Below the pieces are notes generated by a model. That model worked only from the letters and a program-made list of their open reading frames with translations. It did not search any database and was not told the origin of the DNA. This document shows, piece after piece, positions 1,716 through 32,078 of a stretch of 38,068 bases of DNA (position 1 is the stretch's first letter; each line of letters starts with the position of its first letter). This DNA is from Desulfobacteraceae bacterium. Lineage in GTDB: Bacteria; Desulfobacterota; Desulfobacteria; Desulfobacterales; SURF-7. Location: assembly GCA_003599865.1 (NCBI GenBank), contig QZKS01000034.1, positions 1 through 38,068 on the forward strand, read 5' to 3'. Both the position numbers and the translations under genes were made by a program.

Positions 1716-1743
1716 GTTTTCCTCCATTCATTGTTAATTAAAA

Positions 1744-2390: not shown

Positions 2391-2440
2391 TCAGGATGAA
2401 GAAACAACATCTCGGAATCAGACTGCTCAGTTTGCTTCTA

Positions 2441-3073
2441 CTATTCAGCAGCAGGAGCCTCTTCCGCAGCAACCGCTTCCTCAACTCCTTCTTCTCCCGT
2501 TTCAACAGCTTCCCTCTTAGGCGCAAGTATGGTGATCACTGTAAAATTGACTTCCGCCGGTATTTCCATATCACCTTCCAAATGAATATCGTTGACATGG
2601 ATGGAATGACCAACCTCCAAATTGGTAATGTCCAGCTCGATGGTCTCTGGAATTTCAGCCGGATAACACAGGACCTCCAGCTCACGCCTGATGATCTGGA
2701 GCAGGCCGCCATTTTCAACACCGATGCATTTTCCTTTTACAACAACCGGAACGCGTGCTCGGATTTTACGATCCATAGCCACTTCATAAAAATCAATATG
2801 AAGAAAGCCGCCTTTAACCGGTCTGCGCTGCATCTCTTTGATCATGGTCGGTTTCTTTGGAGCTCCGTCCCCCAGATCAATGTTTATGAGCTGCTGATTG
2901 GACTTGGCATTTTTCAACAGTGTTTCAATTTCTTTTGCCTGAACAGAAAGGGAAACCGGTTGGGTATCCGGCCCGTAAAGCACTGCCGGAACCATACCAT
3001 CCCGCCTAAGGGAATGTGCAGGCCCCTTGCCGGTCTTATTTCTTTTTTCTGCTTTTAGTTCAAGTATTTCCAA
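2441..3073 (-). CDS. rplY: Large-subunit ribosomal protein bL25, CTC-type long form
   Basis: 5S-rRNA-binding ribosomal protein. The 210-residue length is that of the long Ctc/TL5 form with an extra C-terminal beta domain, not the ~95-residue E. coli form. The N-terminal half holds the bL25 signature (RNKTGKGPAHSLRRDGMVPAV), and the tail is Glu/Ala-rich (EEAVAAEEAPAAE), as is common for the long form. The start is TTG at 3073: AGGAGGG lies just upstream and no in-frame ATG is better placed. It lies 30 nt downstream of prs, so prs-rplY-pth form one likely transcription unit. Confidence 0.95.
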   Translation of the reverse strand: MEILELKAEKRNKTGKGPAHSLRRDGMVPAVLYGPDTQPVSLSVQAKEIETLLKNAKSNQQLINIDLGDGAPKKPTMIKEMQRRPVKGGFLHIDFYEVAMDRKIRARVPVVVKGKCIGVENGGLLQIIRRELEVLCYPAEIPETIELDITNLEVGHSIHVNDIHLEGDMEIPAEVNFTVITILAPKREAVETGEEGVEEAVAAEEAPAAE

Positions 3074-3103
3074 AAGTGACCCTCCTTATATTAGCCCTAA
3101 AAA

Positions 3104-4057
3104 TTATACGAAAAGTGATGTTACGGAATCCCCACGGTGGCTTCGGATGATTGCTTCTCCGACAAGTTGCGCAATTGACAGTATCTTGATTTTATCACAC
3201 GCAGAAGCTTTGCTGCTCAGAGGAATGGTATCCGTTGCCACAAGACTTTTCAGATCAGAATCAATGATCCGGTCTACCGCCGGACCCGATAAAACAGCAT
3301 GTGAGCAGCATGCATGAACCTCCAAAGCACCCGCATTCTTTATCGCACCGGCAGCCTCGGTCAGTGTGCCGGCAGTATCCACCATGTCATCCAGAATAAT
3401 GGCGACTTTATCCTTGACATCCCCGATTACAGCCATGGCCCGTGCCTGATTTGGAGCATCTCTTCGTTTGTCAACAATCGCCAGGCCGGCTCCCAGTCTT
3501 TTGGCAAATGCCCTTGCCCGTTCAACACCACCTGCATCCGGTGATACGATAACCGATTTCTCACCAAAACGTTTTTTAATAAAATCCAGAAGGACCGGAG
3601 CTGCGAAGAGATTATCCACCGGCATATTAAAAAAGCCCTGTATCTGTCCGGCATGAAGATCCATGGTAATCACCCTGTGGGCACCGGCGACATCCAGAAG
3701 ATCCGCAACCATTTTGGCACTGATCGGAACCCGCGGAGCCACCTTTTTGTCCTGACGGGCATACCCGTAATAGGGTATAACTGCCGTTATCCTCTGTGCC
3801 GATGATCGTTTCAGAGCATCCAGCATCAACAGCAGTTCAACCAGACTATCATTGACCGGCCGGCAGGTCGACTGAATGACAAACACATCGGACCCGCGGA
3901 CATTCTCATCGATTTCTATCTGGACTTCACCATCGCTGAAGGTCTTTACCTTGGAACTGCCAAGCGGCATACCGAGATATTCACAGATTTTTTTTGCCAG
4001 AACCGGGTTCGAATTTCCGGTAAATAAATAAACGCCATTTGTTGAATTATCCATCAT
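3104..4057 (-). CDS. prs: Ribose-phosphate pyrophosphokinase (PRPP synthetase)
   Basis: Makes PRPP from ribose 5-phosphate and ATP for nucleotide, His and Trp synthesis. The 317-residue length matches class I enzymes. Visible motifs are the PRPP-binding loop DDMVDTAGT, the flexible catalytic region [22 protein letters not shown], and the ATP-site stretch [10 protein letters not shown]. Two consecutive ATGs (4057 and 4054) are possible; GGAG is better spaced from the second, so residue 1 may be the second Met. It lies directly downstream of tRNA-Gln and upstream of rplY. Confidence 0.97.
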
Positions 4058-4111
4058 TTCTCCAGAGTAAACCGGACCTAAAAGCCTTTGCCTAAAAATA
4101 TAATATACAAG

Positions 4112-4187
4112 TGGCTGGGGCGGGAGGATTCGAACCTCCGAATGCAGGAATCAAAATCCTGTGTCTTTGCCGCTTGACGACGCCCCA
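4112..4187 (-). tRNA. tRNA-Gln (anticodon TTG)
   Basis: A complete 76-nt cloverleaf can be drawn on the minus strand. The acceptor stem TGGGGCG pairs with CGCCCCA, G is the discriminator and CCA is encoded. The anticodon stem is CAGGA/TCCTG around the loop TTTTGAT, giving anticodon TTG (reads CAA/CAG, Gln). The T arm is GGAGG TTCGAAT CCTCC. It lies between ispE and prs on the same strand. Confidence 0.96.
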
Positions 4188-4248
4188 AATGAAAGCATAA
4201 CCGGCAGTCCACGAAGATTCTTTTCAACGAGTTGCCGGTAATATCGTA

Positions 4249-4277
4249 AAACCGGCTGTTGCGTACATTGCCGGTTT
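4249..4277 (-). terminator. Possible weak terminator or processing hairpin after ispE
   Basis: AAACCGGC at 4249-4256 pairs with GCCGGTTT at 4270-4277 (8 bp, 13-nt loop). On the minus strand the 3' arm runs into GGTTTTACG, only a short T-run. It lies between the ispE stop and tRNA-Gln, so it could end ispE transcription or act in tRNA precursor processing. Confidence 0.35.
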
Positions 4278-4304
4278 ACAGAATGTGATTCCCTGTTTTT
4301 CTGA

Positions 4305-5177
4305 CTACACGATCATTTCTGCCAAAAATTTATGCCCCTCACGGAACTGTTTAAGCTCCCGATATGCAAACTTTGCATGGTTGATATCAGAAAAAAGGCC
4401 GAATACGGTCGGCCCGCTTCCGGACATCAGCGCTCCTCCGGCACCCAATTTCATCAGCAGCGCTTTTATCCGTTCTATATCCGGAATTATTTTGGCGGTA
4501 ACGGTTTCAAGGTCATTACACAAAAAATTGCAGATATCAACTGATCCACCACTAAAAGGAAACTTTGTAATTATTTTTTCACATTTTGTCAATCCCAAAT
4601 TCAGGTTTTTATAAACCTCTGCCGTAGACACATGGATTCCGGGATTGACCAATAATACATGAAATTTTCTCAATGAATGATACTCGATAAGCTCTTCTCC
4701 AATACCTTTTGCAACCGCCGGTCTTCCACTGATGAAAAAAGGGACATCCGCTCCGACGGCAAGACCGATCTCCCGAAGTTTCTCATCCGGCAAAACCTGC
4801 TGGAAATGCCTGTTCAGTACCTTCAAAACGGTTGCCGCATTGCTGCTGCCGCCACCAAGCCCTGCGCCAACCGGTATTTTTTTTTCAATCCGAATCCTTA
4901 CACCGGTCATATGCCCGGAAGCTTCCCCAAAAAGCCTGGCTGCTTTCCAGGCCAGATTGGTATCATTTTCCGGAACATCCGGATGTGTACACTGGATGTC
5001 TATACCGGATGCCTGAAAATCAAAATACAGAATATCAAAAAGCGTAATTCCACACATCAGGGTACATAAATCATGATACCCGTTCTGTCTTTTGCCGGTT
5101 ACCTGTAAAAAAAGATTAATTTTTGCAGGTGATAATTCTCGGATCGTAGGCAGGGTAGTCCGCATTTCTTCATTCAA
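4305..5177 (-). CDS. ispE: 4-diphosphocytidyl-2-C-methyl-D-erythritol kinase
   Basis: ATP-dependent kinase of the MEP isoprenoid pathway, phosphorylating CDP-ME at the 2-position. It is a GHMP-superfamily protein of 290 residues, normal for IspE. Visible motifs are the N-terminal SPAKINLFLQV with the catalytic Lys, the ATP-binding PVGAGLGGGSSNAA loop, the region GADVPFF with the conserved Asp, and the C-terminal MSGSGPTVFG. Two Met codons (5177 and 5165) are possible starts and neither has a strong Shine-Dalgarno. IspE next to Prs is a common bacterial arrangement. Confidence 0.95.
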   Translation of the reverse strand: MNEEMRTTLPTIRELSPAKINLFLQVTGKRQNGYHDLCTLMCGITLFDILYFDFQASGIDIQCTHPDVPENDTNLAWKAARLFGEASGHMTGVRIRIEKKIPVGAGLGGGSSNAATVLKVLNRHFQQVLPDEKLREIGLAVGADVPFFISGRPAVAKGIGEELIEYHSLRKFHVLLVNPGIHVSTAEVYKNLNLGLTKCEKIITKFPFSGGSVDICNFLCNDLETVTAKIIPDIERIKALLMKLGAGGALMSGSGPTVFGLFSDINHAKFAYRELKQFREGHKFLAEMIV

Positions 5178-5310
5178 TATATCGAATTATCACGATATGT
5201 AATTCTGCTTTCCATCGCTCGATCATCAAAAGATCGGCATGCAACCGATGATGGGAACAATGATAGTACAGCTTTTTTCCTGTGCATTGATCAATATCCA
5301 GGTAATAACG

Positions 5311-6750
5311 TTACCGCGTCATACGAACCACGATAAAACCAATATTTTTTCGTTTAATGAAAAATTGAATCTGCTCCCCTGACTTTATCCGGCTGATCAA
5401 TGTCTTAAAGTCCTTGAGTGTTTTTACAGAATGATGATTGATTTCTTTAATAATATCCCCATGCATAATACCAGCCTCTTCTGCCTGACTGTCCGGTTCA
5501 ACATCAAGAACAATCACCCCTCCGGATTCATTGAGATTATATTTTTCCCCGACCTCATCGGTAAATTCCGAGACTTCTATTCCGAGGTCTTCTTCTGTTT
5601 TCCCGCCCTGGGAATCCTCCGGCGAGGTGTCATCATTCATTCTTCCGATCTCAACATGTAATTTTATTTCCGAACCACCACGCAGGACCAGAACCGCAAC
5701 CTTCTTTCCAACATCCGTCTCCGCGACAAGGCTTGATAAAGCACGGCTGTTATCCACTTTCCTGCCGTTAATCTCCAGTATGATATCTTTTGCTTGGATA
5801 CCGGCATGATCCGCAGGTCCTCCCGGCACAACCTCAACAACAAGGACGCCCTTCCCATCATCAATGTTATAGTATTCTGCGAGCTCTTTACTGATATTCT
5901 GGATGGAGACCCCTAAAAATCCTCTTGAAACGGTTCCATGCTTTTTGAGCTGTTCGATGATACCCTTTGCCAGATCAACCGGAATCGCAAATCCAATCCC
6001 CTGTCCGCTTGCAATAATGGCGGTATTGATACCGACAACCTCGCCATCCATATCCAGAAGAGGCCCACCGCTGTTCCCCGGGTTAATGGAAGCATCTGTC
6101 TGAATAAAATCGTCATATGGACCGGAACCGATAACCCTTCCTTTTGCGCTGACGATACCTGCTGTGACGGTCTGCTCAAGACCAAAAGGACTGCCGATGG
6201 CAACTACCCACTGCCCGACCTTGACATTCGCGGAGCTCCCAAGTTTCAGGCAGGGCAGATTCTGTTTGGCCTCTACCTTGATCAGAGCAAGATCGGTCTT
6301 TACATCAAGACCGATTATCGTAGCTTCGAACTCTTTTCCATCTTTTAATATGACTTTAATCTTATCGGCATTCTCAACAACATGGCTGTTTGTTACAATA
6401 TAACCTTCCTTGTCAACAATAAAACCCGACCCGAGACTTCGCTGCGGATGATCAAACTGCGGATTATTTCCAAAAAATCGATTAAAAAACTCATTAAAAG
6501 GATCATCCTGACGAAAAGGTTTCTGATCAAAATAATGGAAATCCCCCCCTGCACCTTTGATTTTTTTCTCGGTCCGGATATTCACAACGGAAGGGCTTAC
6601 TGATTCGGCAAGGCTACTGAAACTTCCCGGCAGGATGATGGTATCAATCGGTTTTTCCCTCGCATCCGCCCTGGAAAAAGACAAGATACATGCCGCCATT
6701 AAACCGATCAGAAGTATCCGTTCCCTTTTTCGCTTATTTTCCCTTTTCAT
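5311..6750 (-). CDS. DegP/DegQ (Do-family) periplasmic serine endoprotease
   Basis: Envelope quality-control protease. The 479-residue protein starts with a basic signal peptide and a hydrophobic core (residues 1-30, ending ADA). The trypsin-like domain carries the triad His123 (in TNSHVV), Asp153 (in KTDLALIK) and Ser227 (in GNSGGPL). Two PDZ domains follow (about 270-370 and 385-475); the second has VIVLDVEPDSQAEEAGI. Between signal and protease is a flexible insert rich in Phe and Asn (FNEFFNRFFGNN), as in many DegQ/MucD proteins. The family assignment is firm; which Deg paralogue it is cannot be told from sequence alone. Confidence 0.93.
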   Translation of the reverse strand: MKRENKRKRERILLIGLMAACILSFSRADAREKPIDTIILPGSFSSLAESVSPSVVNIRTEKKIKGAGGDFHYFDQKPFRQDDPFNEFFNRFFGNNPQFDHPQRSLGSGFIVDKEGYIVTNSHVVENADKIKVILKDGKEFEATIIGLDVKTDLALIKVEAKQNLPCLKLGSSANVKVGQWVVAIGSPFGLEQTVTAGIVSAKGRVIGSGPYDDFIQTDASINPGNSGGPLLDMDGEVVGINTAIIASGQGIGFAIPVDLAKGIIEQLKKHGTVSRGFLGVSIQNISKELAEYYNIDDGKGVLVVEVVPGGPADHAGIQAKDIILEINGRKVDNSRALSSLVAETDVGKKVAVLVLRGGSEIKLHVEIGRMNDDTSPEDSQGGKTEEDLGIEVSEFTDEVGEKYNLNESGGVIVLDVEPDSQAEEAGIMHGDIIKEINHHSVKTLKDFKTLISRIKSGEQIQFFIKRKNIGFIVVRMTR

Positions 6751-6807
6751 GGTTTTTTCTCACCCCCCCACGAGTTAGAACGTAAAAAAGGTCGTATCTG
6801 AAAAAAA

Positions 6808-7185
6808 CTAACTTCGCTCTTTCACATACATGAGCCTCAGATCGTGCAGAATATGCCTGAGTAACTTTTCCTCATCATTCGTCAGATTGCCCTTTGTTTT
6901 TTCGTCCAGCATCCCGAGGATATCAATACTCTGCTTGGCAAGTGGCAGATTTTTCTCTTTTTTGCCGGAAGTTGGATCCGGGACCAGCCCCATATGATAT
7001 AACGCTGAAGAATTTAAAGAAAAAATAAAAGTTGAAAACGTGATTTTCGGTAACTGTGATTCTTTGCCGGCCCGCTCACCGGAGGTGGATGATCCGCTCG
7101 TACCTTCCTGTTTTTTCCCCGATGTTTCCCCATCAGAGGAGATCTCTGTTTCCTTGACAATATTTTCTTTTGTTTGATCCGTCAT
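6808..7185 (-). CDS. DUF1844 family protein
   Basis: A 125-residue protein of unknown function. The N-terminal ~45 residues are polar, Ser/Gly/Glu/Lys-rich and probably disordered. The C-terminal ~75 residues match what I recall of DUF1844: FSTFIFSLNSSALYHMGL, then PLAKQSIDILGMLDEKTKGN, and a tail of NDEEKLLRHILHDLRLMYV. The family is typical of Deltaproteobacteria and Acidobacteria and often lies near core genes. It lies between serA and the Deg protease on the same strand. No catalytic residues are evident. Confidence 0.8.
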   Translation of the reverse strand: MTDQTKENIVKETEISSDGETSGKKQEGTSGSSTSGERAGKESQLPKITFSTFIFSLNSSALYHMGLVPDPTSGKKEKNLPLAKQSIDILGMLDEKTKGNLTNDEEKLLRHILHDLRLMYVKERS

Positions 7186-7234
7186 GGCATACTCCCCCTT
7201 GTTTTCAATATCAAAAAGGAATCCAATAAAGCTG

Positions 7235-8815
7235 CTATAAATTTAATGGAATCACTGTTTTAACCATGGGCAGATCCATCAATTGTTTGACCACATCATC
7301 CGGAATCGGGGTATCGGTTCTTAAAATAATAACATTCCGCTCACCTTCCTCTTCCTGGCCGACCTGCATTCTGGCGATATTCAGATTGTTGAGACCCAGT
7401 GTTGTTCCGATGCTGCCGATTGCACCCGGCCGGTCCATATTGTGAATCAATGCCAGGTAACCTTTTGGTATAATTTCCAATCGAAATTTGTTGATCCGGA
7501 CGATCCGGGGGTCATTCTTTCCGAAGATGGTTCCTTCAACCGTATTGTCCATTTCTGTTGTAACAATCTTCACCTTGATCAGGTTGGTAAAATCCACGGA
7601 TTCTCCACTTGTTGTTTCCGTAACTTTAATCCCCATATCTTTTGCGATGCTCGGTGCATTGACCGCATTCACTTCATCCATGACCATCATGGAAAGGAGT
7701 CCATTCAATAAAGCGGTTGTGACCGGTGAAAGGTCGAGTCCCTGGAAATCTCCAATGTACTCGACAATCACTTCCTTAACCGGCCCCTGAATCAGCTGGG
7801 CCTGCAAACAGCCTATGCGATCTGCCAATGTCAGGTAGGGACCAAGCTTTTTCAGCAACTCGCCGGTAACGGACGGCACATTTACGGCATTAATCACCGT
7901 ATCATGTTTTAAATATGCAATGATCTGTTCCGCTACATCCACCGCAACATTGGTCTGGGCTTCCTGCGTGGATGCTCCCAGATGAGGGGTTCCGATAACG
8001 TTATCCAGCTCAAACAGAGGGGATTGTCCGGGAGGTTCGGTCTCAAAAACATCCAATGCAGCGCCGGCGACCTTTCCGGATTTAATGGCTTCATACAAAT
8101 CCGCCTCATCCACAATACCGCCGCGCGCGCAGTTGATCACCATAACCCCATCTTTCATCTGCTGAAAAGCTTCCTTATTCAGAAGCCCGATCGTACTCTT
8201 CATTTTGGGGACATGAACCGTGATATAATCAGCTCGTTTATACAATTCCTCCAGGCTGACATATTCAAAACCTGCTTTTTCAATTTTTTCCGCCGTGACA
8301 TTTGGATCATAGACAATAACGTTCATTCTCAGACCCCTGGCGCGGTCCGCCACAATAGCGCCAATATTTCCATATCCGATGACGCCCAGTATTTTGTTGT
8401 AAATTTCCCTTCCCTGCAGTTTCTTCTTTTCCCATCGTCCCGCTTTCAATGATGAAGTGCCCTGAGGGATGTTCCGGGTAAGGGCCATCATCATCGCAAT
8501 GGCATGTTCGGCAGTTGTTACAACATTCCCGCCCGGTGTATTCATAACAGCGATGCCACGTTTGGTTGCGGCCGGGATATCCACATTGTCCAGCCCGATT
8601 CCGGCACGACCGACAACCTTCAGTTTTTTCGCTGCGGAAAGAAGATCAGCGGTCACCTTGGTGGCGCTCCGTATTGCCAATGCATCATATTCCCCAATTA
8701 TTTTTTTCAGTTCTTCCGGCGCGAGCCCGGTTTTCACATCCACTTCAATGCCTTCTTCCTTCTGGAATATCTGAATCCCGACTTCACCAAGATTGTCACT
8801 GACCAAAACTTTCAT
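7235..8815 (-). CDS. serA: D-3-phosphoglycerate dehydrogenase, long (ACT-domain) form
   Basis: First step of serine synthesis: oxidation of 3-phosphoglycerate with NAD+. The start is set at ATG 8815, giving 526 residues, because GGAGG lies 7 nt upstream; an upstream in-frame start adds only 11 unconserved residues. Visible parts are the substrate-binding N-terminus, the NAD Rossmann motif GVIGYGNIGAIVADRARG, catalytic Arg in INCARGGIVDE, Glu in FETEPP and His in GTPHLGAST. The intervening ASB domain is followed by a C-terminal ACT domain (HNMDRPGAIGSIGTTLG), which in this family can mediate serine feedback. It is divergent from the chemoreceptor gene. Confidence 0.97.
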   Translation of the reverse strand: MKVLVSDNLGEVGIQIFQKEEGIEVDVKTGLAPEELKKIIGEYDALAIRSATKVTADLLSAAKKLKVVGRAGIGLDNVDIPAATKRGIAVMNTPGGNVVTTAEHAIAMMMALTRNIPQGTSSLKAGRWEKKKLQGREIYNKILGVIGYGNIGAIVADRARGLRMNVIVYDPNVTAEKIEKAGFEYVSLEELYKRADYITVHVPKMKSTIGLLNKEAFQQMKDGVMVINCARGGIVDEADLYEAIKSGKVAGAALDVFETEPPGQSPLFELDNVIGTPHLGASTQEAQTNVAVDVAEQIIAYLKHDTVINAVNVPSVTGELLKKLGPYLTLADRIGCLQAQLIQGPVKEVIVEYIGDFQGLDLSPVTTALLNGLLSMMVMDEVNAVNAPSIAKDMGIKVTETTSGESVDFTNLIKVKIVTTEMDNTVEGTIFGKNDPRIVRINKFRLEIIPKGYLALIHNMDRPGAIGSIGTTLGLNNLNIARMQVGQEEEGERNVIILRTDTPIPDDVVKQLMDLPMVKTVIPLNL

Positions 8816-15554: not shown

Positions 15555-16484
15555 TTATATAACCGGTCTGGGAAACAGGCCGGCTCTCTCAACAATTTCG
15601 GGAACTTTTTCCTCCCACTCGATCGCCATCACATGAAACCCGTGAACCCCATCGATCTCTTTGAGTCTCTGTATGGATTCCACACAGATATTGATCCCTT
15701 CTTGCGCCTGCTTCTCCTTGGGTGTGTCTGCCATCCGTTTTACAACCGCATCCGGAACATCCATACCGGGAACCCTGTTTTTCATATACCGCGCCATGCC
15801 GGCAGATTTAAACGGCGTAACGCCTGCCAGGATATGGACTTTTTCATGAAGACCCCGGTCCCGGACTCCCTTCATCCACTTCTCAAATTTATCAAGATTG
15901 TAAATACATTGTGTCTGTATAAATTCAGCTCCTGCCGCCACTTTTTTAGCAAGCCTGGCAACACGTATTTCAAAAGGGTCGGCAAATGGATTGGCGGCCG
16001 CTCCGACAAACATTTTCGGGGGACGCTTGATCTCATCCCCTCCGATAAATTTTCCTTCATCCCGCATTCTCCGGACAGTCTGGATCAACTGCATGGAATC
16101 CAGGTCATGAACATTCTGTCCGGATGCGCAGTCTCCAAAGCTCTGATGATCCCCGGACAAACATAACATGTTATGGATATCAAAAGACGCAGCCCCAAGG
16201 ATATCACTTTGTAAAGCGATTCGATTCCGATCTCTGGTGACCATCTGAAGAACCGGTTCCAGCCCCATCAGCTTCAGCCGGATACAGGCCGCCAGACTGC
16301 ACATCCGGGTAACGGATGTCTGATTGTCGGTAATGTTGATCGCATCCACATGATCTTTAATCAAGTTCGCCTTTTCCGTAATCGCTTCCGGGTCACTGCC
16401 CCGGGGCGGACCACACTCGGATGTCACGGCAAGATTGCCTGATGCAAGAATTTTTTCCAGTTTGCTCTCTGTTTTTAGGCTCAT
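15555..16484 (-). CDS. metF: 5,10-methylenetetrahydrofolate reductase, MetF of the Hdr-Met operon
   Basis: Flavin TIM-barrel enzyme reducing methylene-THF to methyl-THF, the methyl-branch step of the reductive acetyl-CoA pathway. The 309-residue chain shows TSECGPPRGSD near the N-terminus (catalytic Glu region), DAINITDNQTSVTRM, LQMVTRDRNRIALQSD and LCLSGDHQSFGD, all MTHFR landmarks. Its start overlaps the metV stop as ATGA. The linked MetV, MvhD and HdrA indicate that reductant is delivered through an iron-sulfur/flavin complex rather than directly by NADH, as known for MetF-MetV acetogen-type enzymes. A second homologue lies at 29279-30154. Confidence 0.93.
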   Translation of the reverse strand: MSLKTESKLEKILASGNLAVTSECGPPRGSDPEAITEKANLIKDHVDAINITDNQTSVTRMCSLAACIRLKLMGLEPVLQMVTRDRNRIALQSDILGAASFDIHNMLCLSGDHQSFGDCASGQNVHDLDSMQLIQTVRRMRDEGKFIGGDEIKRPPKMFVGAAANPFADPFEIRVARLAKKVAAGAEFIQTQCIYNLDKFEKWMKGVRDRGLHEKVHILAGVTPFKSAGMARYMKNRVPGMDVPDAVVKRMADTPKEKQAQEGINICVESIQRLKEIDGVHGFHVMAIEWEEKVPEIVERAGLFPRPVI

Positions 16485-17149
16485 TCCTGAACATCCTCCC
16501 TGACAACTTTTCGGGGTCCTCCGGCTCGATCAGAGGACCAGTCCTTGATATCCGCTAATTTTTCATAATCATCCATTCTGTTCATGGCTTTGAGCCTGTC
16601 GATAATCAACTGCCAGGCACAATCCAGATCCTTGCTGATTTCACATTTTCCATTGGTTGAACCGCCGCAGGGGCCGTTTAAAATGCGCTTGGCGCATCTT
16701 GAAATCGGACAAATCCCGGCAGTGTTTGCCAGTATGCATTGTCCGCAGGCTTGACAACGTTCTGTCCATAATCCTCGTTTCTCTGTCGCACCTAAAAAAC
16801 AGGTATTCACTCCCGGATAAACCGGAGTCGATCCGTATTTGTCCGCGACAAACTGGACACCCACTCCGCAAGCAAGAGAAAGAACCGCATCATAGGAATC
16901 AATGCGATCCCGGATCTCTTCCAGATATTCGTGATCACATTGCCGTTCCAGTGTGATTTCATCGATCAGCTTTTCTTTGCCCTGGTTCAGAAAATACATT
17001 CGAAGAGCGGAAGCCAGGATTCCGACCTCTTTTTTACCACCGGCCTCACAAACGGTGACGCACTCATTGCATCCCAGCAGAAGAATTTTTTGATAATCTT
17101 TAATTTCTTGAATAATTTCTTCAATCGGTTTTTTATCAGCAACAATCAT
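16481..17149 (-). CDS. metV: MetV-like zinc/iron-sulfur subunit of methylene-THF reductase
   Basis: A 222-residue protein of the MTHFR C-terminal (MetV) family, the obligate partner of MetF in acetogens and many sulfate reducers. Cysteine motifs are visible: GCNECVTVCEAGG near residue 27, then CQACGQC and CPISRCAKRILNGPCGG in the C-terminal half, expected to hold metal (Zn in studied MetV) and possibly Fe-S. Both ends overlap its neighbours by 4 nt (ATGA with mvhD upstream and metF downstream), indicating tight translational coupling and probable complex formation. No flavin motif is seen, so it is structural or electron-transferring, not catalytic by itself. Confidence 0.88.
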   Translation of the reverse strand: MIVADKKPIEEIIQEIKDYQKILLLGCNECVTVCEAGGKKEVGILASALRMYFLNQGKEKLIDEITLERQCDHEYLEEIRDRIDSYDAVLSLACGVGVQFVADKYGSTPVYPGVNTCFLGATEKRGLWTERCQACGQCILANTAGICPISRCAKRILNGPCGGSTNGKCEISKDLDCAWQLIIDRLKAMNRMDDYEKLADIKDWSSDRAGGPRKVVREDVQE

Positions 17150-17601
17150 AAAGCACCTTCACGGATAATGGGTTTTATTTTTTTCTTTGCCAGTTTAATC
17201 GGATTCGGTCCCAATTGGATGATCTTATCAAACATCTCGTTTGCATACTTTACAAAAAGCGGCGCCTCGCTGGAGGACAGATTGCACATCCTGACACGCT
17301 CACCGCCGATTCCAATATTGTCCAACAGTATTTGAGCCTGCTCCACCCGTTTCCGGGCTCGAAAATTACCCTGGTTGTAATGACAATCCCCTTCCATGCA
17401 TCCCACCACATAGACACCATCCGCTCCTTTTTCAAAAGACCGGAGGATATGGATGACATCCACCTTTCCGGTGCATGGAACCCGAATAATTTTAATACTT
17501 GCCGGATAACTCAATCTCATCGAACCTGCCAGGTCCGCCGCGGTATATCCTCAGAAATTACAGCAAAACGAGATGATAATCGGTTGAAAATCCCTACTCA
17601 T
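17146..17601 (-). CDS. mvhD: MvhD-family iron-sulfur protein, selenocysteine-containing (in-frame UGA)
   Basis: Small [2Fe-2S] electron-transfer subunit that docks HdrA to its partners. The frame from ATG 17601 (overlapping the hdrA stop as ATGA) encodes 151 residues if UGA at 17551-17553 is read as selenocysteine 17. The N-terminus then reads CCNF-U-GYTAADLAGSMR, matching the family pattern CCN-x-C-x-Y-x-A-A-DLAG with U in the third Cys position. Later cysteines are in RVPCTGKVD, GCMEGDCHY and RMCNLSS. Taking the internal ATG at 17520 instead would discard the conserved metal-binding N-terminus. Homology on both sides of the UGA, the ATGA coupling and the hairpin below argue against a pseudogene. 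Confidence 0.88.
17521..17553 (-). promoter_or_regulatory. Candidate bacterial SECIS of mvhD
   Basis: The UGA is at 17551-17553. Twenty nucleotides downstream a triloop GGC (17528-17530) caps a 7-bp stem, CGGACCT (17531-17537) with AGGTTCG (17521-17527), including one G-U. The G at the start of the loop and the UGA-to-loop distance fit the published general model of bacterial SECIS elements. Folding was done by eye. Confidence 0.65.
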
Positions 17602-20600
17602 AACACCCCTTCCAGCAAAGCCTCCACCTTGCTAAGCAGCTGATCATCCTCGTACCAGTTCAGTTCGATCGCTTTGGCAGGGCACTCAGCAGCACAAACG
17701 CCGCAGCCATGGCACAATGCCTCATCGATCTCACTCACACCATCCTGATTGATTCTGGGTACGCCATATGGACAGGATCGTACACAGATCAGGCAGGAAG
17801 CACATCGATCTCCATCAACCCTGGCAACAACCGCAGACAGGGTTAAATGGGGTTGTGAAAGAAAAGTAGCGGCTCTGGATGCAGCAGCCTGAGCCTGGGC
17901 AATGGACTCGGTTAACAGTTTGGGACTGTGTGCCGTTCCGCAGACAAAAATACCCTCGGTTGCCATGTCGACCGGCCTCAGCTTGACATGCGCCTCCATG
18001 AAGAAACCTTCGGCATTTCGTGCCAGCTTCACAATGGATGAAAGCTCTTCCGTATCTTCGGCTACCATTCCGGCACTTAAGACAAGCAGATCCGTTCCTG
18101 CCTTCAGGTCAACGTTCAAAACATGATCCCGGAAGGTGACACAAAGCTCCCCATCTTCAACCGCGGCCTGAGGAGGATTATCGGGAGTAAAGCGTGAAAA
18201 AATTACCCCCAGCTTTCGGGCTTCCGTATAATAATCTTCCAGCAACCCGTATGTTCTGATATCCCGATACAGGATAAAGACTTCCGTTTCCGGATTCAGC
18301 TTTTTAATATGAATCGCATTTTTAATGGCTGCCTGACAACAGATTCGGGAGCAATTCGGGTTCTCCTCATTTCTGGAACCCACGCATTGCACCATGATAA
18401 CCCTGTCCAGCCCTTCTGCGCCTTTTTCTTCCAGCCGATGAGACAAGGTAACCTGAGTAATCACGCGCGCATCTTCTTTATACAAATACTCTTTTGGTTC
18501 ATACTCCTTTGCGCCGGTTGCTATGATTACAGCCCCATGATCGATTTTTCGTTCATACATACCGGGCCCGACCAATATCTCCGTTGTGAAATTTCCTTTG
18601 AACCCCGAAAATCCGACCACAAGAGACTGGAGAAGAACATCTATTTTGGGATGGGTTTTTACTTTTCGAACCAGCGTTTCCAAGTAAAAACCGATATCCT
18701 TCCCCTCAATGGTTTTTGTCAGACGGTTAGCCATTCCGCCCAATTGAGATTCCTTCTCGATCAAGACAACTTCAAATCCCTGATCTGCCAGATTCAGGGC
18801 GGCGTTCATACCGGAAACCCCGCCTCCGATAACAATCGCTCTTTCATTTACAGGAATCCTTTTTTCATGAAGCGGTTTCAATGATGCCGCCCGGGCAATG
18901 GCCATCCGAACCAGATCCTTTGCCTTGTTCGTTGCTGCTTCCGGATCTGCAGAATGAGTCCAGGAATTTTGATTACGGATATTGGCCATCTCAAAAAGAT
19001 ATTTATTCAAGCCGCAGGCTTCCAGGGTATCCATGAAAATTCCTTCATGGGTCTTGGGTGTACATGCCGCGACAACAATGCGATTCAGATTGTTCTCCCG
19101 GATGATCTTCTTCATCATATCCTGGGAGTCCTGGGAGCATGTAAACAGATTCTGTGTACTGAAAACAACCCCCGGAATCGTTTTCGCATACTCCTCAACC
19201 GCCGGAACATCCACCACACCGGCAATGTTGATCCCGCAGTTGCAGACGAACACGCCGATTCTGGGTTCCACATTGCTCACATCGATCTCTTCCGGAATCT
19301 CGATGGTCTTGATACACGTCCCCCGGGCATCGGATAAAACCGCACCGGCAGCAGCAGCAGCAGCGCTTGCCTCAATAACCGAACTGGGAATATCTTTCGG
19401 GCCCTGAGATACACCGCAGGCAAACACACCGGGCCTGGAAGTTTCCACCGGTGCAAACAGATCCGACTCCGTAAAATGATATCGATCCAGATCAATTTCC
19501 AGCCTTTCCGCGAGACGGATCGCGGATTCATCAACCTGAAGCCCGACGGAAAGGACAACCATATCAAAAATCTCTTCACAGATCTGACCGGAATCATCGG
19601 CAAAGCGAATCCGGAGATCACCGGTATTCCCTACCGGATGAATCGTATGAATTCTTGCTTTGACAAACCGGACTCCGGCTTTATGCCTTGCCCGATCATA
19701 ATATTTCTCGTAATCTTTGCCGAATGTTCGGATATCCATATTAAAAATGGTACACGCCAGTTCTTCTTTGGAGTGCTCTTTGGCAATCATGGCATCCTTG
19801 ATGGCGTACATGCAGCAAACCGAGGAGCAGTAACCATTACCGCATTTGTTATTGTCCCTGGACCCGATGCATTGCAGCCATGCGATTTTTTTCGGCTCCT
19901 TCTTGTCGGACGGACGAACTAGATGCCCCATGGTTGGACCGGAAGCACTTAAAATCCGTTCAAACTCCAGGCTCGTCAGGATATTCGGGTGTTCCTTGTA
20001 ATGATAAAACTCTTCCAGGGCTGACGGATCATACGGTCTGCTGCCGGCTGCGATAATCACGGATCCGACCTCAATCTCCCGGAATCGGACCTTCTGGGTG
20101 TGATCAACAGCCTCTGCCAGACAGGCTTCAACACACTGATAGCATTCGGAACAATAGCCGCAGTTCAGGCAGCGTTCCGCTTCTTTCCGCCCCGATATCT
20201 CATCAAACCCCTGTTCCACTTCATGGAAATTTCCCATCCTTTCGGCAATCGCAAGCTCAGCCTGTCTTTCCCTTTTCTGTTTCCGCAGACCGGTTGGTAT
20301 GGGCCGGTACTCCGGCTGTTCATTGACAGTCGGTTCTCTTCCTTCCGCCATATCCAGGCCATCCAGATAGCGGACAATGGATTTGGCCGCTTCCTTGCCG
20401 GCGGCAATGGCACCAATGGCTATCCACGGTCCGGTCTGAAGATCACCTCCGGCAAAAACACCTTCTCTTTCCGTGGCATAGGTAATCGTATCGACTTCTG
20501 CCGTTCCCCATCGGGAAAACGTCAAACCAGTGATATCCTCAAGGGGTGACAGATCCGGCCTCTGACCGATCGCCGGGATAATCTGGTCAATCTCCAGCTC

Positions 20601-22031
20601 ATATTCACTCCCGGGTATGGGAACAGGCCTTTTTCGGCCGGATGAATCCGGTTCACTGAGTTCCATGCGGATGCACCGAAGACCGGTTACCCTGCCCTGG
20701 CCCACGATCACTTCCTGCGGTGCAGACAGATAGGTGATCTTGACGCCCTCTTCTTCTGCGGCATGGATCTCTTCTTCCCACGCCGGCATCTCTGCCCTGG
20801 TTCGGCGATAAACAATGGAAACTTCTTCTGCGCCAAGACGAATAGCCGCCCGGGACACATCAATGGCGACATTTCCGCCGCCGATAATGGCCACCTTCTT
20901 TCCCACGGAGGATTTGCCGGTCAAATTTACTTCTCTCAGAAAATCAACGCCTTGCCGAACACCATCCGCCTTTTCTCCCGGGATGCCCAATTCAATGCCC
21001 TTATGCGCTCCGGTAGCCAGATACACGGCATGATAACCGTTGCCCAGTAGACCATCCACCGTCATATCCGGGCCGAGCGGTGAATTGGTTTTAATCTCCA
21101 CACCCAGATTGGTGATGACTTCGATTTCCTGGTCCAGGATATGCGGCGGCAGTCTGTGATCCGGTATGCCGACCCTCAACATCCCGCCCGGAAGCGGCAT
21201 GGCTTCGAAAATCACCGACCGGATGCCTTTGCGTGCCAGATGATATGCAGCGGAAAGTCCTGCAGGGCCGGAACCGATGATCGCCACCTTTTCTTTTCTT
21301 TCCGGAAGACATTCAATCTTCACCTTTCGGGGATCGAACCGATCCGCCGCCAGTCTTTTTAATTTGCAGATTGCTACCGGTTCGTCCACGTCACATCGCC
21401 GACAGGCATCCTCGCATCCATGAGGGCAAATTCTTCCCAGCACACCGGGAAGAGGAAGGTCTTCCATGATGATCTGCAAGGCTTCCTCATACTTTCCCTG
21501 CTTTACCATCTGGACATAACCCTGAACATTGATTCCCGCAGGACAGGCGAGACGGCAAGGAGCGAGGTCCGTCTTATCGATGGCATATGCACCGGGGATT
21601 GCCTGGGCATACCGTTTAAAGGCGGCTTTTTTTACAGAAAGCCCTTCATCATATTCATTGGGAAGGGATACAGGGCAAACCTTGCTGCACTCCCCACAGC
21701 TTGTGCATTTGGACAAATCAATAAAACGGGGTTTCTCCTTTACGAGGGCTCTGAAATTACCGACGCCCCCCTCAAGCTTTTCCAGTTCCGTGTTTGTTAA
21801 AAGTTCAATGTTGATATGCCGGCCGACCTCGACCAGTTTTGGAGAGATGATTCACATCGCGCAATCATTTGTGGGAAATGTTTTATCCAGTTGGGACATC
21901 AGCCCCCCGATGGCTGATGATTTTTCGACAAGGTAAACATAATATCCTGAGTTGGCGAGGTCCAGGGCAGACTGCATTCCGGCAATACCGCCCCCGACAA
22001 CCATGACAGATCCGATGACTTTCTTGGTCAT
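17598..22031 (-). CDS. hdrA: HdrA-GltD-HdrA fusion flavoprotein, selenocysteine-containing (in-frame UGA)
   Basis: Cytoplasmic iron-sulfur flavoprotein of 1477 residues. ATG 22031 follows GGAGGG. Residues 1-60 are an FAD Rossmann start ([10 protein letters not shown]) leading to [10 protein letters not shown], where UGA at 21852-21854 encodes Sec60 in place of the conserved HdrA cysteine; [11 protein letters not shown] follows directly. A ferredoxin-type cluster is at 109-121. An inserted GltD-like module spans about 152-600: [18 protein letters not shown] motif [20 protein letters not shown](P) motif [11 protein letters not shown] and [10 protein letters not shown]. The HdrA sequence then resumes ([28 protein letters not shown]). 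A second HdrA unit follows from about 924: [43 protein letters not shown]. Two [4Fe-4S] motifs lie at about 1410-1450. It probably routes NAD(P)H and ferredoxin electrons via MvhD to MetVF; no HdrB/C is nearby. Confidence 0.9.
21819..21854 (-). promoter_or_regulatory. Candidate bacterial SECIS of hdrA
   Basis: The UGA is at 21852-21854. After 15 nt a 7-bp stem forms between CTGGTCG (21830-21836) and CGGCCGG (21819-21825), with two U-G pairs and a tetraloop AGGT (21826-21829). The loop begins 22 nt after the UGA and has G at its second position, fitting the general bacterial SECIS model. Folding was done by eye; the same bases also encode the conserved LVEVGRH, which limits how freely they could vary. 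Confidence 0.6.
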
Positions 22032-26890: not shown

Positions 26891-27820
26891 TCATTTCCGA
26901 TCCAGAAATTGCCTGACCAGACGATCCCATGAAGATTCCGGAAGGTTTCCGTAGATATCGTTTCCCAATTGCCCGCCATCCGCAGTCAAGGGGCCGTATT
27001 CTTCTTCAACGACATGGTAGAGGGCATCAATTTCCGCTGCCAGAAAGGATTCCGCTTCGGTTCCGATCATCAGGGATTTCAAACTGTCTCTTACATTATC
27101 CGCATGGACTGTCATTACCCAGCCATCGGTATACGGGGAAATCCCGTCTTTTTTTTCACCGGACAGCATCTCCATATTCACTGCCGTGACCACCCCGGAA
27201 ACCGGCGATACCAGTGCTGCCTTGTTTTTTCCCCGCCGCAAGCAGATACTTTTATCCCCATGAGACACCACTTTCCCCATCAGCGGAGCCTTGATCTCAT
27301 CCGGAGGACCCAGCAAGCGCAGGGAAAAATCATCCAGGCCGATACGGACTTCAGCGCCCTCTTCCACCTTTACCCAGGCATGCCCGCGATGGAGATAATA
27401 CCCCTGGGGAATTTTGAACCCGTGAACGTCCAGCACCTCAACGGGCTCAATGACGGCATGCACCAGATGCCGGTCAACAAAATACTGATCAAAATCACAA
27501 TTCCCGCAGCGGTAATCATTGATGCAGTTCCGGTATTGAATCTTCCCCTTCATGGAGTGAAGACAGGGTCGATTTCCGGGAGGCCTTTCCTGCATTTTCT
27601 CTTTCCAGAAGACAATCCCGCTCCCCCTGCCTTTCAGCATTCGGCCCTGTTTTCGAAGCTTCCGGTTGTGATCCGCGATCCTTACCATGGCCTTGTCATA
27701 ATGGCAGGATGCACACTCGTAATCATATCGGCAACGTTTTTCCCGGACCACACCGGCCTGCATCCAGATGCATTCAGAATGCTGATCATTTACATATTGT
27801 CGGCTGATTGTACCCTTCAT
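26891..27820 (-). CDS. Cys-rich GcvH-like protein, copy 1
   Basis: A 309-residue protein with two parts. The N-terminal ~110 residues hold two four-Cys motifs with identical spacing CX12CX5CX2C, at C17/C30/C36/C39 and C86/C99/C105/C108, each ending in C-x-Y/F-D. The C-terminal ~170 residues resemble the H-protein of glycine cleavage: HRGHAWVKVEEGAEVRIGL, LMGKVV, then SPVSGVVTAVN and DGWVMTV. A Lys (about K198) falls near the lipoylation position, but the usual ESVKA context is absent. GGAGGGAAAG precedes the ATG. It lies 51 nt after copy 2 and is likely cotranscribed. It is not an ordinary GcvH (~130 residues); its function is unknown, perhaps Fe-S or zinc binding plus a lipoyl-type domain. 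Confidence 0.75.
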   Translation of the reverse strand: MKGTISRQYVNDQHSECIWMQAGVVREKRCRYDYECASCHYDKAMVRIADHNRKLRKQGRMLKGRGSGIVFWKEKMQERPPGNRPCLHSMKGKIQYRNCINDYRCGNCDFDQYFVDRHLVHAVIEPVEVLDVHGFKIPQGYYLHRGHAWVKVEEGAEVRIGLDDFSLRLLGPPDEIKAPLMGKVVSHGDKSICLRRGKNKAALVSPVSGVVTAVNMEMLSGEKKDGISPYTDGWVMTVHADNVRDSLKSLMIGTEAESFLAAEIDALYHVVEEEYGPLTADGGQLGNDIYGNLPESSWDRLVRQFLDRK

Positions 27821-27871
27821 CTTTCCCTCCTGAAAAGGTCCCGGCGATTCATCATGAAAAATCCTGGTCGA

Positions 27872-28870
27872 TCAGGTCTTCAAGAATGTCCTGACAAGAT
27901 TTGACCATCCCAGTTGAGGCAACGCGCCAAAAATATCATTTGTCAGATAACCGCCGTCTGCAGCAAGAGGTCCGGCCACGTCTTCGATCATCTCTTCCAG
28001 GGTGTTGATTTCCGCGTTCATCCAATCCAGGCTTTCCGTATCTTTCATCAGCTTTTTCATGGTGCTGCCGACATCCGGCGTTCTTACGGTAAACAGCCAG
28101 CCGTCTGCAAACGGTTCCTGGTTTGCCGTTTCAGGATTTTCTCTGACTTTTGGATTGACTTCCGTAATCACTCCACCGATGGGAGAAAGAACATCCGCCA
28201 GGTTGTCTTTCCGTTTGATACCCCAGCCCGGAACACCTTGATCCAGCTCCTTTCCCATCAAGGGCAAGTCAAAACCATCCGCCTTTCCAAAGAGCTTCAT
28301 GGAAAAATCGTCCAGCCCGACCCGGATAAAACCGCCGCTTTCAATTCTGGCCCAGGTGTGTCCATGATGAAAAGAATAGCCGACCGGAAGCCGGAATCCC
28401 CGGATTTCATTCATCTCAAAAGGCCTGCTGCCGGTTCTTGATGACAGGATATCTTCAAAGTACTGGTCAAAATCACACGTACTGCATTGATAATCATAAG
28501 CACAAGCCCGATTCTCCATGCGATGTGTCAGGCTGTGCCGGCAGATCCGGGCAAGAGATGGTCTCCTGCGCATGGCATCCTGCCAGCTGATCTGATTTCC
28601 CTTGCCGACTTTGGTCTGCATTCCCAGGTCATATTTGCAGGAGGTACAGTCATAATAGTTGTTGCAGCTTTTGAATTTTACTGCGCCGGACTGCATCCAG
28701 ATACAGGGGTTTTGGTCTTTGGCCTTCTTGTCAGGTGAAATCATCCAGACCTGGCCACCCAGAACCGCTGCATTGCCGATTCCATTTTTCAGATCCGACT
28801 GCATCCCTTTGGTATAGGTTGAACCATATCCCACGCTGCTTCGCTGTTTATCCTTTTTCTCCTGTGTCAT
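27872..28870 (-). CDS. Cys-rich GcvH-like protein, copy 2
   Basis: Paralogue of the downstream gene, 332 residues from ATG 28870 (GGAG 8 nt upstream; an in-frame ATG at 28918 lacks a ribosome site). A ~50-residue polar N-terminal extension precedes two four-Cys motifs of the same spacing CX12CX5CX2C, at C56/C69/C75/C78 and C110/C123/C129/C132. The second runs into CDFDQYF, exactly as in copy 1. The GcvH-like part shows HHGHTWARIESGG, SPIGGVITEVN and DGWLFTV. Where the lipoyl Lys is expected the sequence is KRKDNLADV, so lipoylation is doubtful. A promoter with an overlapping inverted repeat lies about 250 bp upstream. Confidence 0.75.
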   Translation of the reverse strand: MTQEKKDKQRSSVGYGSTYTKGMQSDLKNGIGNAAVLGGQVWMISPDKKAKDQNPCIWMQSGAVKFKSCNNYYDCTSCKYDLGMQTKVGKGNQISWQDAMRRRPSLARICRHSLTHRMENRACAYDYQCSTCDFDQYFEDILSSRTGSRPFEMNEIRGFRLPVGYSFHHGHTWARIESGGFIRVGLDDFSMKLFGKADGFDLPLMGKELDQGVPGWGIKRKDNLADVLSPIGGVITEVNPKVRENPETANQEPFADGWLFTVRTPDVGSTMKKLMKDTESLDWMNAEINTLEEMIEDVAGPLAADGGYLTNDIFGALPQLGWSNLVRTFLKT

Positions 28871-29110
28871 TTCCCGGCTCCTTTTTTTGGTTTTGTATGT
28901 GTATTGGATGATTTCCATTTTCTTTTTTACACATGGAATAGAGCAAGGGGTGTGCCACCGCCGGAAGACATTGCTGCTTCTTAGGCATAAAAGATTGAAT
29001 TTAAAAAATGATTGAACAATTCAACGCCGGCAGGCGTCAATCCTGATGCGCTGATAAGGGTGCTGGAATATCCGGCAGAACTTTTTTCCGGCCATCATGC
29101 ATTTGGATTG

Positions 29111-29278: not shown

Positions 29279-30154
29279 TTATACGCCCATGCCTCCCAGA
29301 ATTTCAGGAAGCCGATCTTCCCAGCCAATCGTCACAATGTGAACGCCGTTGAATTGATTGAGCCGCAGGTCCTTAACCAGCTCGGATGCAATGGTGATAC
29401 ACTCCCGAACCTTATCACCCGCGTTCTGTATGCGATTGATCAAATCATCCGTGATCATCACGCTCTTGACGTTACGGGCCATATATCGCACCATGCCCAA
29501 AGATTTCAGAAGCAGCACAGTCGGAATAATTTTAACGTCGAATTTGGAGGCTTTTTCCATGAACGGATGCAACGCATCCATATGAAAAACAGGAGGCGTA
29601 ATGAAAAATTCCGCCCCTGCCTCAATCTTCTGCTCCATTTCATGGATCTCCCGATCCAGGTCTTCTCCGCTTAAAAAAGCATTCACCGTGGAACCAACCG
29701 TAAAATCGGTGGAGCCGGCCAGTTCAATTCCTGCCATATCTTTTCCGGCCTGCAGAGACTGGATCATTTTCAGCATCTCCGGCAAATTGATATCATATAC
29801 CGCCTTAGCTTCATGATGATCGCCAAAGCTGGGATCTTCCCCGGCAACCGCCATAACATTTTGAATACCACAGGCCTGCGCCGCCAGCAAATCCGCCTGA
29901 AGAGCAATCCTGTTTCGGTCGCGGCAATTTGCCTGCATAACCGTCTCCATCCCCTTATTCCGGAGAACCATTGCACCGCCTAGTGAACTCATGCGCATCA
30001 CGGCATTGCTCATTTCCGGAACAACGAATGCATCAACTGCCCCCTTAACTTTTGTGGCCTTTTGTACCATCTGAGATACATCCACACCTTTGGGAGGTTC
30101 CATTTCTGCCAGTATAACGAACTTTCCAGCATTCAACTTACTTTTCAAACTCAT
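29279..30154 (-). CDS. Second methylenetetrahydrofolate reductase (MetF) homologue
   Basis: A 291-residue MTHFR-family TIM-barrel protein. The start is ATG 30154, with GGAGG 5 nt upstream; an upstream in-frame Met lacks this site. It shares landmarks with the operon MetF (VILAEMEPPKGVD with the N-terminal Glu, MQANCRDRNRIALQAD, MAVAGEDPSFGD) but is clearly divergent and stands alone, with its own promoter and terminator and no MetV partner next to it. It may be the methionine-synthesis enzyme, a stress- or substrate-specific isoform, or a partner of another Hdr complex; the sequence alone does not decide. Confidence 0.88.
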   Translation of the reverse strand: MSLKSKLNAGKFVILAEMEPPKGVDVSQMVQKATKVKGAVDAFVVPEMSNAVMRMSSLGGAMVLRNKGMETVMQANCRDRNRIALQADLLAAQACGIQNVMAVAGEDPSFGDHHEAKAVYDINLPEMLKMIQSLQAGKDMAGIELAGSTDFTVGSTVNAFLSGEDLDREIHEMEQKIEAGAEFFITPPVFHMDALHPFMEKASKFDVKIIPTVLLLKSLGMVRYMARNVKSVMITDDLINRIQNAGDKVRECITIASELVKDLRLNQFNGVHIVTIGWEDRLPEILGGMGV

Positions 30155-30336
30155 ATATTCCTCCATTATCAAGTTAACCGACCGGTAAGAGGGCACTATG
30201 AAACCACCGGCCCCAAAAACAGAATAGTTCGTTTTTTCATGATCATCACTGAATAACGGTAATCAGAAACACATTGCCTGACTGAAAAAAATATGAATCA
30301 TGTTTTCCGCCGGTTTTTACCGGCAATATTTTTTTA

Positions 30337-30686: not shown

Positions 30687-32078
30687 ATGGGAAAAAAAGA
30701 TCTTTTAAAATCAACCACCAAAAATAAAAAAGAACAAAAAAAGAAAACGGCAGCGCCCAAAAAAACAGCCGCCAAACAAGCAGCCCCCGCAAAAGGGACA
30801 GTTGAAAAAAAAGCCTCGCCGGAAAACCTCACAGGCACGGCTTTGCTTCTTCAGCAGTTCGATGCCTGGAAACCTGCGAAATTATTTGCCGTAACACCAG
30901 ACAAGGAAAATGAAAAAAGATATACGTCCCCCCCGTTTTATCCGGAAAAATCCAAAACAGAGATTGATGAGATTCAAAAACTGCTTGCTTTAAAATTTGA
31001 TATCCAGGAAATCCTCAAAAAAGGTGAAAAAGCGGCAGCAGAAAAGGCAGCGGCAGAGAAAGCAGCAGCGGAAAAAGCGGCGGCAGAGAAAGCAGCGGCA
31101 GAAAAAGCAGCAGCGGAAAAGGCAGCGGCAGAAAAAGCAGCAGCAGAGAAAGCGGCAGCAGAAAAAGCGGCAGCAGAAAAAGCGGCAGCGGAAAAAGCGG
31201 CAGCGGAAAAAGCAGCGGCAGAAAAGGCAGCGGCAGAAAAAGCGGCAGCAGAAAAGGCGGCAGCAGAGAAAGCAGCGACAGAGAAAGCGGCAGCGGAAAA
31301 GGCGGCGGCAGAAAAGGCAGTGGCAGAAAAAGCAGCAGCGGAAAAAGCAGCGGCAGAGAAAGCGGCAGCAGAAAAAGCAGCAGCAGAGAAAGCGGCAGCG
31401 GAAAAAACGGCAGCAGCAAAGGCGGCGGCAGCAAAGGCAGCGACAGTAGAAAAAATAGCAGCGGCCCCCGTGATTGAGGCACCAGCTATCGTCCATGCTG
31501 AGATGAAACCAGAGCCGGATCCACTCAAAAAGATCCTGACAGTCATCGCTGCATTTCTTGTCATCGTCTTTATACCCATAATCATTGCAAGCTTTCTGAA
31601 TACAACCAACTATTATCTTAAGGCAACAGACGGTGCCCTTGAGCTTTGGCAGGGAGACTTTGCCCCTCTGGGAAAAAATATTGTACTGTCCATGCCGGGA
31701 GCCGTTCCGCCGGAAACCATAGAGGAAGTATATTGCAAAAAAGATGTTTTCCCGATTGTTGCCGGCTATCTTCTGGACAAAGCAGACACCCTTATTGAAA
31801 TGGAAGGATTACCCGATTTTCAGCATATTCAATCCACCCTGCAAGAGGCGAGAGCGTATGCAATTGAAAAACCCATGAGCGCCCAAATTGATAACCGTAT
31901 GACCAAAATTGAGTTCATGAATCTTCTGTATAAGGCAGATGTTGAATTGAATTCATCATCCGTGGACGGCAAAGCTGCTGCAATCGCCTATCTGGAAAAA
32001 GCGGCCCTGCTTGACCTGGATGTGCATGAAGCGGAAATGGTGGCCCGGAAAATCAAAACCCTTCAGCCTGAAAAATAG
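30687..32078 (+). CDS. Membrane protein with long EKAAA pentapeptide-repeat helix
   Basis: A 463-residue protein I do not recognise as a named family. AAAGGGG precedes the ATG. Residues 1-45 are Lys/Ala/Pro-rich, histone-H1-like. Residues 114-243 consist of 26 consecutive pentapeptides EKAAA with four variant units (an AAT, an AVA and terminal TAA/AK forms), predicting one long charged alpha helix. One membrane helix follows at about 282-304 ([19 protein letters not shown]). There is no N-terminal signal, so the repeat is most simply cytoplasmic and the ~160-residue C-terminal domain periplasmic. That domain begins [23 protein letters not shown] and ends in TPR-like helices. The repeat resembles the TolA helix in composition but has the opposite layout. 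It is a lone gene bounded by terminators. Confidence 0.8.
31026..31415 (+). repeat. 26-unit 15-bp tandem coding repeat (EKAAA)
   Basis: 390 bp of in-frame 15-bp units, consensus gaaaargcrgcrgca-like, with frequent synonymous changes (GAA/GAG-neutral third positions, GCA/GCG alternation) but an almost invariant protein. Length variation by slippage is likely between strains. Long shadow frames on the other strand are by-products of the periodicity. Confidence 0.95.

Follow-up and report, generated by a model that had tools for sequence, protein, structure and literature searches.

The question raised by this locus is whether mvhD, whose reading frame is interrupted at codon 17 by a TGA, encodes a selenoprotein, and what a selenocysteine (Sec) at that position might do. 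The window analysed here is a stretch of 38,068 nucleotides of a Desulfobacteraceae genome. Papers cited by PMC number are represented by excerpts of their text. On the minus strand of the window, four genes lie head to tail in the order hdrA, mvhD, metV, metF, and every start overlaps the preceding stop:

17598..22031, minus strand: hdrA of the HdrL type, encoding a pair of HdrA units, a GltD-like insert and a predicted Sec60
17146..17601, minus strand: mvhD, FlpD/MvhD family, 151 residues plus stop when the UGA is read as Sec
16481..17149, minus strand: metV-like gene (methylene-THF reductase C-terminal family), Pfam PF12225 at 5.2e-37
15555..16484, minus strand: metF, methylene-tetrahydrofolate reductase family, Pfam PF02219 at 1.2e-37

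The neighbours of this run, a response regulator and a histidine kinase, are encoded on the opposite strand. The metV-like gene has no NCBIfam match in the profile scan, and a Pfam scan finds hdrB or hdrC neither in the run nor among 20 other ORFs of the window. Elsewhere in the window there is a second gene of the MTHFR family (29279-30196; PF02219, 7.9e-31), two adjacent genes with glycine cleavage H-protein domains (26891-28918; PF01597, proteins of 309 and 348 residues) and a 463-residue ORF (30687-32078) matching the histone H1-like HC2 and extensin profiles, matches that composition alone may explain.

MvhD matches the Pfam family FlpD (PF02662, 4.7e-47) over residues 9-131 with 159.5 bits, the cut-off being 22.3, while on the narrower NCBIfam VhuD model NF045873 it scores 178.6, under the cut-off of 215. 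The sequence confirms the start proposed in the initial annotation, an ATG at 17601-17599 that shares two bases with the stop codon of hdrA (17600-17598). There is one in-frame TGA in each of the first two genes, at residue 60 of hdrA and residue 17 of mvhD. After the latter the mvhD frame reads GYTAADLAGSMR and stays open until the TGA stop at 17148-17146. Plain ORF calling shortens the gene, and the called ORF begins at 17520.

17551..17553, minus strand: UGA codon of Sec17 in mvhD, a TGA in 80 of 80 GTDB loci kept (best 80 of 125)

The search of GTDB genomes gave 125 stretches encoding a relative, of which the best 80 were retained. In these 80 not only the TGA but also Cys13 and Cys14 before it are conserved. 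The search was not biased to TGA, because one of its six patterns was the Cys form of the site. In the whole collection, which is partly hand-chosen, TGA17 is found in 106 of 163 distinct mvhD sequences. The homologues are related by descent and such counts are not independent events; for the SECIS described below, the argument is carried by the contrast between Sec and Cys forms. MvhD matches with E-values up to 1e-30 are present in 143 of the 147 genomes of the class; ranked by E-value, all of the matches listed have an in-frame TGA down to 3.2e-59 and the first one lacking it is at 3.0e-57, the position of the TGA being confirmed for those loci whose DNA was examined. A 66-base stretch around the site has a DNA match in 60 of 198 sampled genomes of the phylum, where the match and not the TGA was scored. 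Of the 15 MvhD matches in the genome itself, ten have no TGA, three have one at position 17 and the other two at position 68. The frame and the homologues thus agree that the UGA at 17551-17553 is real and sits on a family cysteine.

The second line of evidence is a hairpin within the coding sequence.

17521..17537, minus strand: mvhD SECIS hairpin, core GGACCU-GGC-AGGUUC (17536-17522), outer pair weakly kept

The stem of 7 bp (CGGACCU/AGGUUCG, 17537-17521) and the GGC loop described earlier both exist. The spacing of 20 nt given with them belongs to the loop, and the stem itself lies 13 nt past the UGA. Of the seven pairs of the stem, the inner six survive in 96-100% of the 106 distinct Sec17 homologues and the outermost in 34%; 105 of these sequences have a GGC loop. 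Codons +5 to +9 after the UGA are almost fixed in these sequences, with GCG in 102, GAC in 106, CTG in 106, GCA in 105 and GGT in 103. The 40 Cys17 homologues encode the same amino acid in 40/40 cases at four of these five positions, but the codons vary: GCG 14 at +5; GAC 17 and GAT 23 at +6; CTG 10 and ATG 23 at +7; GCA 11 and GCC 21 at +8; GGT 4, GGC 23, GGA 7 and GGG 6 at +9. Five of the six inner pairs drop to 10-42% in this group. In an alignment of 24 chosen sequences the hairpin block is unbroken. In the comparison of Cys and Sec homologues that the initial annotation called for, the hairpin codons are nearly frozen at synonymous sites where there is a UGA and free where there is a Cys. 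Judged from the nucleotide sequences, frozen synonymous codons beside a UGA are the mark of a bacterial SECIS. We also considered fold energy as evidence for the hairpin and dropped it in favour of the synonymous codons, since shuffled versions of the mvhD site are about as stable as the site itself (z 0.13 over 45 nt and 0.65 over 60 nt). That the UGA exceeds chance, as had been claimed, is carried by the conservation of the TGA and of the SECIS codons.

The adjacent gene presents the same picture:

21852..21854, minus strand: UGA codon of HdrA Sec60, motif C57-A-M-U60
21819..21836, minus strand: hdrA SECIS hairpin, CUGGUCG-AGGU-CGGCCGG, fold z -1.48

The seven pairs of the hdrA hairpin are kept in 99-100% of 76 Sec60 sequences, one of which diverges from the others past the UGA, versus 38-96% of 50 Cys60 sequences. 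HdrA thus also qualifies by sequence as a selenoprotein with its own locked SECIS, in line with the earlier claim of two selenoproteins in one operon. Two MvhD paralogues of the same genome carry Sec at position 68 and not at 17 (L036 near 10643, L038 near 14095). The Sec68 site has its own, different hairpin with the same lock, seen by comparing 16 Sec with 145 Cys sequences.

Could the TGA be a sequencing error, or the sign of a decaying pseudogene? An identical TGA occurs in 106 distinct homologues, including two further paralogues of the same genome, and we found no point in favour of an error or of decay; this explanation is ruled out by conservation, with a probability that is practically nil. 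A true stop, with translation of MvhD starting inside the frame at the ATG of 17520, deserves slightly more attention, though we still consider it very improbable. This ATG is the codon of Met28 (codon +11), just past the SECIS, and it is an ATG in 106/106 Sec17 homologues and in 12/40 Cys17 homologues. Against an internal start stand the conservation of Cys13 and Cys14 ahead of the UGA in the 80 GTDB loci and the frozen synonymous codons downstream, which are confined to UGA-bearing sequences. The short form would also be without Cys14, the strand of residues 9-14 and the helix of residues 18-27 of the AlphaFold2 model. We conclude that the UGA at 17551-17553 is most probably decoded as selenocysteine, giving a full-length MvhD (probability about 0.92). 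The gene then provides a well-defined Sec site, open to direct testing, in the electron-carrying subunit of a reductase module of the Wood-Ljungdahl pathway.

The initial annotation had named the absence of the Sec machinery as an argument against this reading. The genome contains selA (638.8 bits), selB (381 bits), a tRNA-Sec whose anticodon is TCA (74 bits) and selD (372.8 bits), which also has a TGA within its frame, so that argument fails.

Another contig of the genome (C38, locus L034) carries an all-Cys copy of hdrA-mvhD-metV-metF at 1254-6703, followed by a small HesB-like gene (P0006), as judged by eye. At 6737-8769 of the same locus, a tRNA-Sec-like gene with anticodon TCA and U73 immediately precedes a divergent selB (279 bits). 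The two operon copies may represent Sec and Cys isozymes between which selenium supply decides, as it does in methanogens. U73 is an identity base of CysRS, and a Cys-charged decoder of UGA, tRNAReC, is known. The tRNA and the divergent selB may form a UGA decoder that inserts cysteine. Fourteen further divergent selB loci (L244-L257) were hand-picked among the matches listed, and such a tRNA is found directly upstream in 15 of the 15 loci examined, our own included. All 16 tRNAs at these loci end in U73-CCA, while the canonical tRNA-Sec of the genome has G73. A better selB match is also present in 13 of the 14 other genomes; the remaining one, G142, has a single match among those listed. The G4 element is kept in 14 of the 15 divergent proteins (SelB2), the exception being the SelB2 of this genome, which has lost both G4 and switch I. 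Bacteria with two tRNA-Sec genes have been reported (PMC5330540). The literature consulted, much of it as excerpts and with tRNAReC's own literature outside it, describes no additional SelB accompanied by a dedicated U73 tRNA, and we claim no novelty for the pair.

This raises the alternative that UGA17 itself is read as cysteine, wholly or under selenium shortage, by the divergent SelB and a U73 tRNA of the tRNAReC type. The constant pairing of the two genes speaks for such a system, as does the excerpted statement in PMC5330540 that position 73 of tRNA-Sec is a G, any other base there blocking serylation. On the other hand, the U73 tRNA of this genome lies on another contig, where it adjoins the all-Cys operon copy, and the SelB2 lacks its G4 and switch I residues; the putative decoder, presumed to be charged with cysteine, also has no known client gene. 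We therefore regard a cysteine reading as improbable. The same low odds apply to a dual reading, in which SelB1 with the G73 tRNA-Sec would insert Sec and SelB2 with the U73 tRNA would insert Cys. If the dual reading were true, selenium supply would decide whether the product of one mvhD gene is a Sec or a Cys enzyme.

For the preferred reading, decoding of UGA17 as Sec, the following mechanism can be proposed. SelB and tRNA-Sec would read the UGA under the direction of the hairpin 13 nt downstream, and the resulting MvhD would carry the motif C14-x-x-Sec17. MvhD would act as a [2Fe-2S] carrier that supplies the bifurcating flavin of HdrA with electrons, and would serve an HdrL-MvhD-MetV-MetF module acting on methylene-tetrahydrofolate in the Wood-Ljungdahl pathway.

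The fold of MvhD agrees with that of its family. The AlphaFold2 model (pLDDT 91.8, 13 sequences) superposes on four solved MvhD-type chains with Z-scores of 22.4-23.3, led by 8rvu_F (Z 23.3) and 5odc_D (Z 23.0), and the next match is at Z 9.7. The structure 9sfi is absent from these matches (library up to April 2026). Cys14, Cys43, Cys68 and Cys73 are invariant in 13 MvhD paralogues of the genome when Sec is counted as Cys, and a legend in PMC5736913 mentions four conserved cysteines in the MvhD family. The excerpts consulted on Hdr/MvhD complexes do not name the ligands of the MvhD cluster, and none of three phrases describing Sec as a ligand was counted among the papers listed. At position 17, paralogues have Ser (L029), Gly (L030) or Asp (L031, by eye). 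Because these paralogues retain Cys14, Cys43, Cys68 and Cys73, a cluster held by four cysteines with Sec17 as an additional residue is suggested. We give roughly even odds to the proposal that these four cysteines would hold the [2Fe-2S] cluster and that Sec17 would be a fifth, redox-tuning residue and not an indispensable ligand.

The two selenocysteines of the operon had been taken to suggest Sec chemistry at the interface between HdrA and MvhD. HdrA residue 60 corresponds to Cys197 by arithmetic, as query residues 8-110 align with 145-247 of 5odc_A. According to excerpts of PMC9012536, the N-terminal cluster of HdrA, with Cys197, is on the way to ferredoxin; Cys197 is a ligand of this cluster supplied by the other HdrA, and in tandem and fused HdrAs, Cys197 and the N-terminal domain are complementary. 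The first unit of the HdrL protein contains C57 and U60 and starts without an N-terminal domain, while in the second the motif of that domain occurs at 926 and the position matching residue 60 is not a Cys. It can thus be proposed, with even chances, that Sec60 of unit 1 would ligate the Fe-S cluster in the N-terminal domain of unit 2, across an intramolecular pseudo-dimer. As the presumed ligand of an N-terminal cluster within one chain, going by the excerpt of PMC9012536, Sec60 would not be located at the MvhD interface. A figure legend of PMC12350162, as excerpted, points the opposite way: it names clusters "of the N terminus of HdrA" along the electron path to the homologue of MvhD. On balance, the alignment of Sec60 with a ligand of the ferredoxin branch does not support Sec chemistry at the interface.

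The distribution of the two residues bears on the same question. The pairing table covers 149 loci with 163 distinct MvhD, and since some of the loci were selected by hand, in part for their stop status, it is not a random sample; with Cys or Sec required at both 57 and 60, the HdrA motif is readable in 124, and 39 of the 163 rows are without a readable upstream motif, one of these also without residue 17. HdrA with Sec60 (n=78) accompanies MvhD with Sec17 in 70 cases and with Sec68 in 8, two of which (L194, L195) have the HdrA motif 4.5-4.6 kb upstream, so that it may not belong to the nearest hdrA; it never accompanies an all-Cys MvhD. HdrA with Cys60 (n=46) accompanies Sec17 in 12 cases and an all-Cys MvhD in 34, and these 12 show that the Sec pairing is not obligatory. 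Among the GTDB operons with Sec17 and a readable HdrA motif, 50 of 57 have Sec60. The cultured relative Desulfocicer vacuolatum (L101) has both codons, TGA17 in mvhD and TGA60 in the preceding hdrA. Sec at both 17 and 68 is found in none of the 163 MvhD.

The idea that Sec17 and Sec60 act as a pair at the interface therefore has points in its favour, namely that in 78 of 78 cases Sec60 comes with a Sec in its MvhD, and that the legend of PMC12350162, as excerpted, routes N-terminal HdrA clusters toward the MvhD homologue. However, on a quick LG+G4 tree of 162 MvhD, built after deletion of both Sec columns, the fewest changes are 4 for position 17, 2 for position 68 and 2 for HdrA residue 60. 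The link thus comes down to two independent pairs, and the co-occurrence cannot reach significance. In addition, Sec68 replaces Sec17 in 8 of the 78, and the excerpt of PMC9012536 assigns the Cys197 cluster to the ferredoxin branch. We consider a functional pair at the interface improbable. The contrast between Sec17, Sec68 and all-Cys MvhD, combined with Sec60 and Cys60 HdrA, makes the role of selenium near Fe-S clusters in flavin-based bifurcation testable.

Selenoprotein pairs of HdrA and MvhD have been in print since 2006, and the mvhD described here is a further member, a selenoprotein of an established type with good support and no new system. The excerpt of PMC1794560 (2006) reports Sec-containing HdrA and FrhD (MvhD) in one operon of Deltaproteobacteria, that of PMC2702500 (2009) Sec-containing mvhD1,2,3,5 with hdrL1 and hdrL3 in Desulfobacterium autotrophicum, and that of PMC5109826 Sec-containing MvhD and HdrA in Desulfococcus multivorans, where one operon is not stated in the excerpt. 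In a 2026 review (PMC13188914, excerpt) the family is entered as CxxU, with at most two Sec. As in these deltaproteobacterial proteins, both subunits are predicted selenoproteins here, and in several of the earlier cases the genes are also adjacent; an HdrL-type partner is common to Desulfobacterium autotrophicum and the present operon (PMC2702500). Unlike those pairs, going by the excerpts, the present one heads a metV-metF operon; the likeness is drawn at the level of whole proteins.

A solved homologue is 9sfi. In chain 9sfi_K (F420-non-reducing hydrogenase subunit delta) an X aligns with MvhD position 17 and another with Cys68, and in 9sfi_A (HdrA) an X aligns with residue 60. An X in a PDB sequence stands for any non-standard letter; as a control, Sec140 of Escherichia coli FdhF (formate dehydrogenase H) is also printed X. 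In 9sfi and 9t1s a non-standard residue stands where MvhD has residue 17 and HdrA residue 60, which is strong but indirect evidence for the Sec reading. Their complex would be of the methanogen type, to go by the F420 formate dehydrogenase chain of 9t1s, and it differs from the present MvhD by the X at position 68, where the latter has a cysteine.

The closest known system in gene content is HdrABC-MvhD-MetVF of Moorella thermoacetica, in which hdrA, mvhD, metV and metF are together (PMC5736913, excerpt) as they are in one operon here. The present operon differs from it in being without hdrB and hdrC and in the GltD-like insert of its HdrA. Type III HdrAs, known from archaea, likewise carry a GltD domain as an insertion (PMC12054007, excerpt). 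Both systems have two fused HdrA units in which Cys197 and the N-terminal domain are complementary, and the order of the units in the present fusion is reversed relative to the fusions described in the excerpt of PMC9012536.
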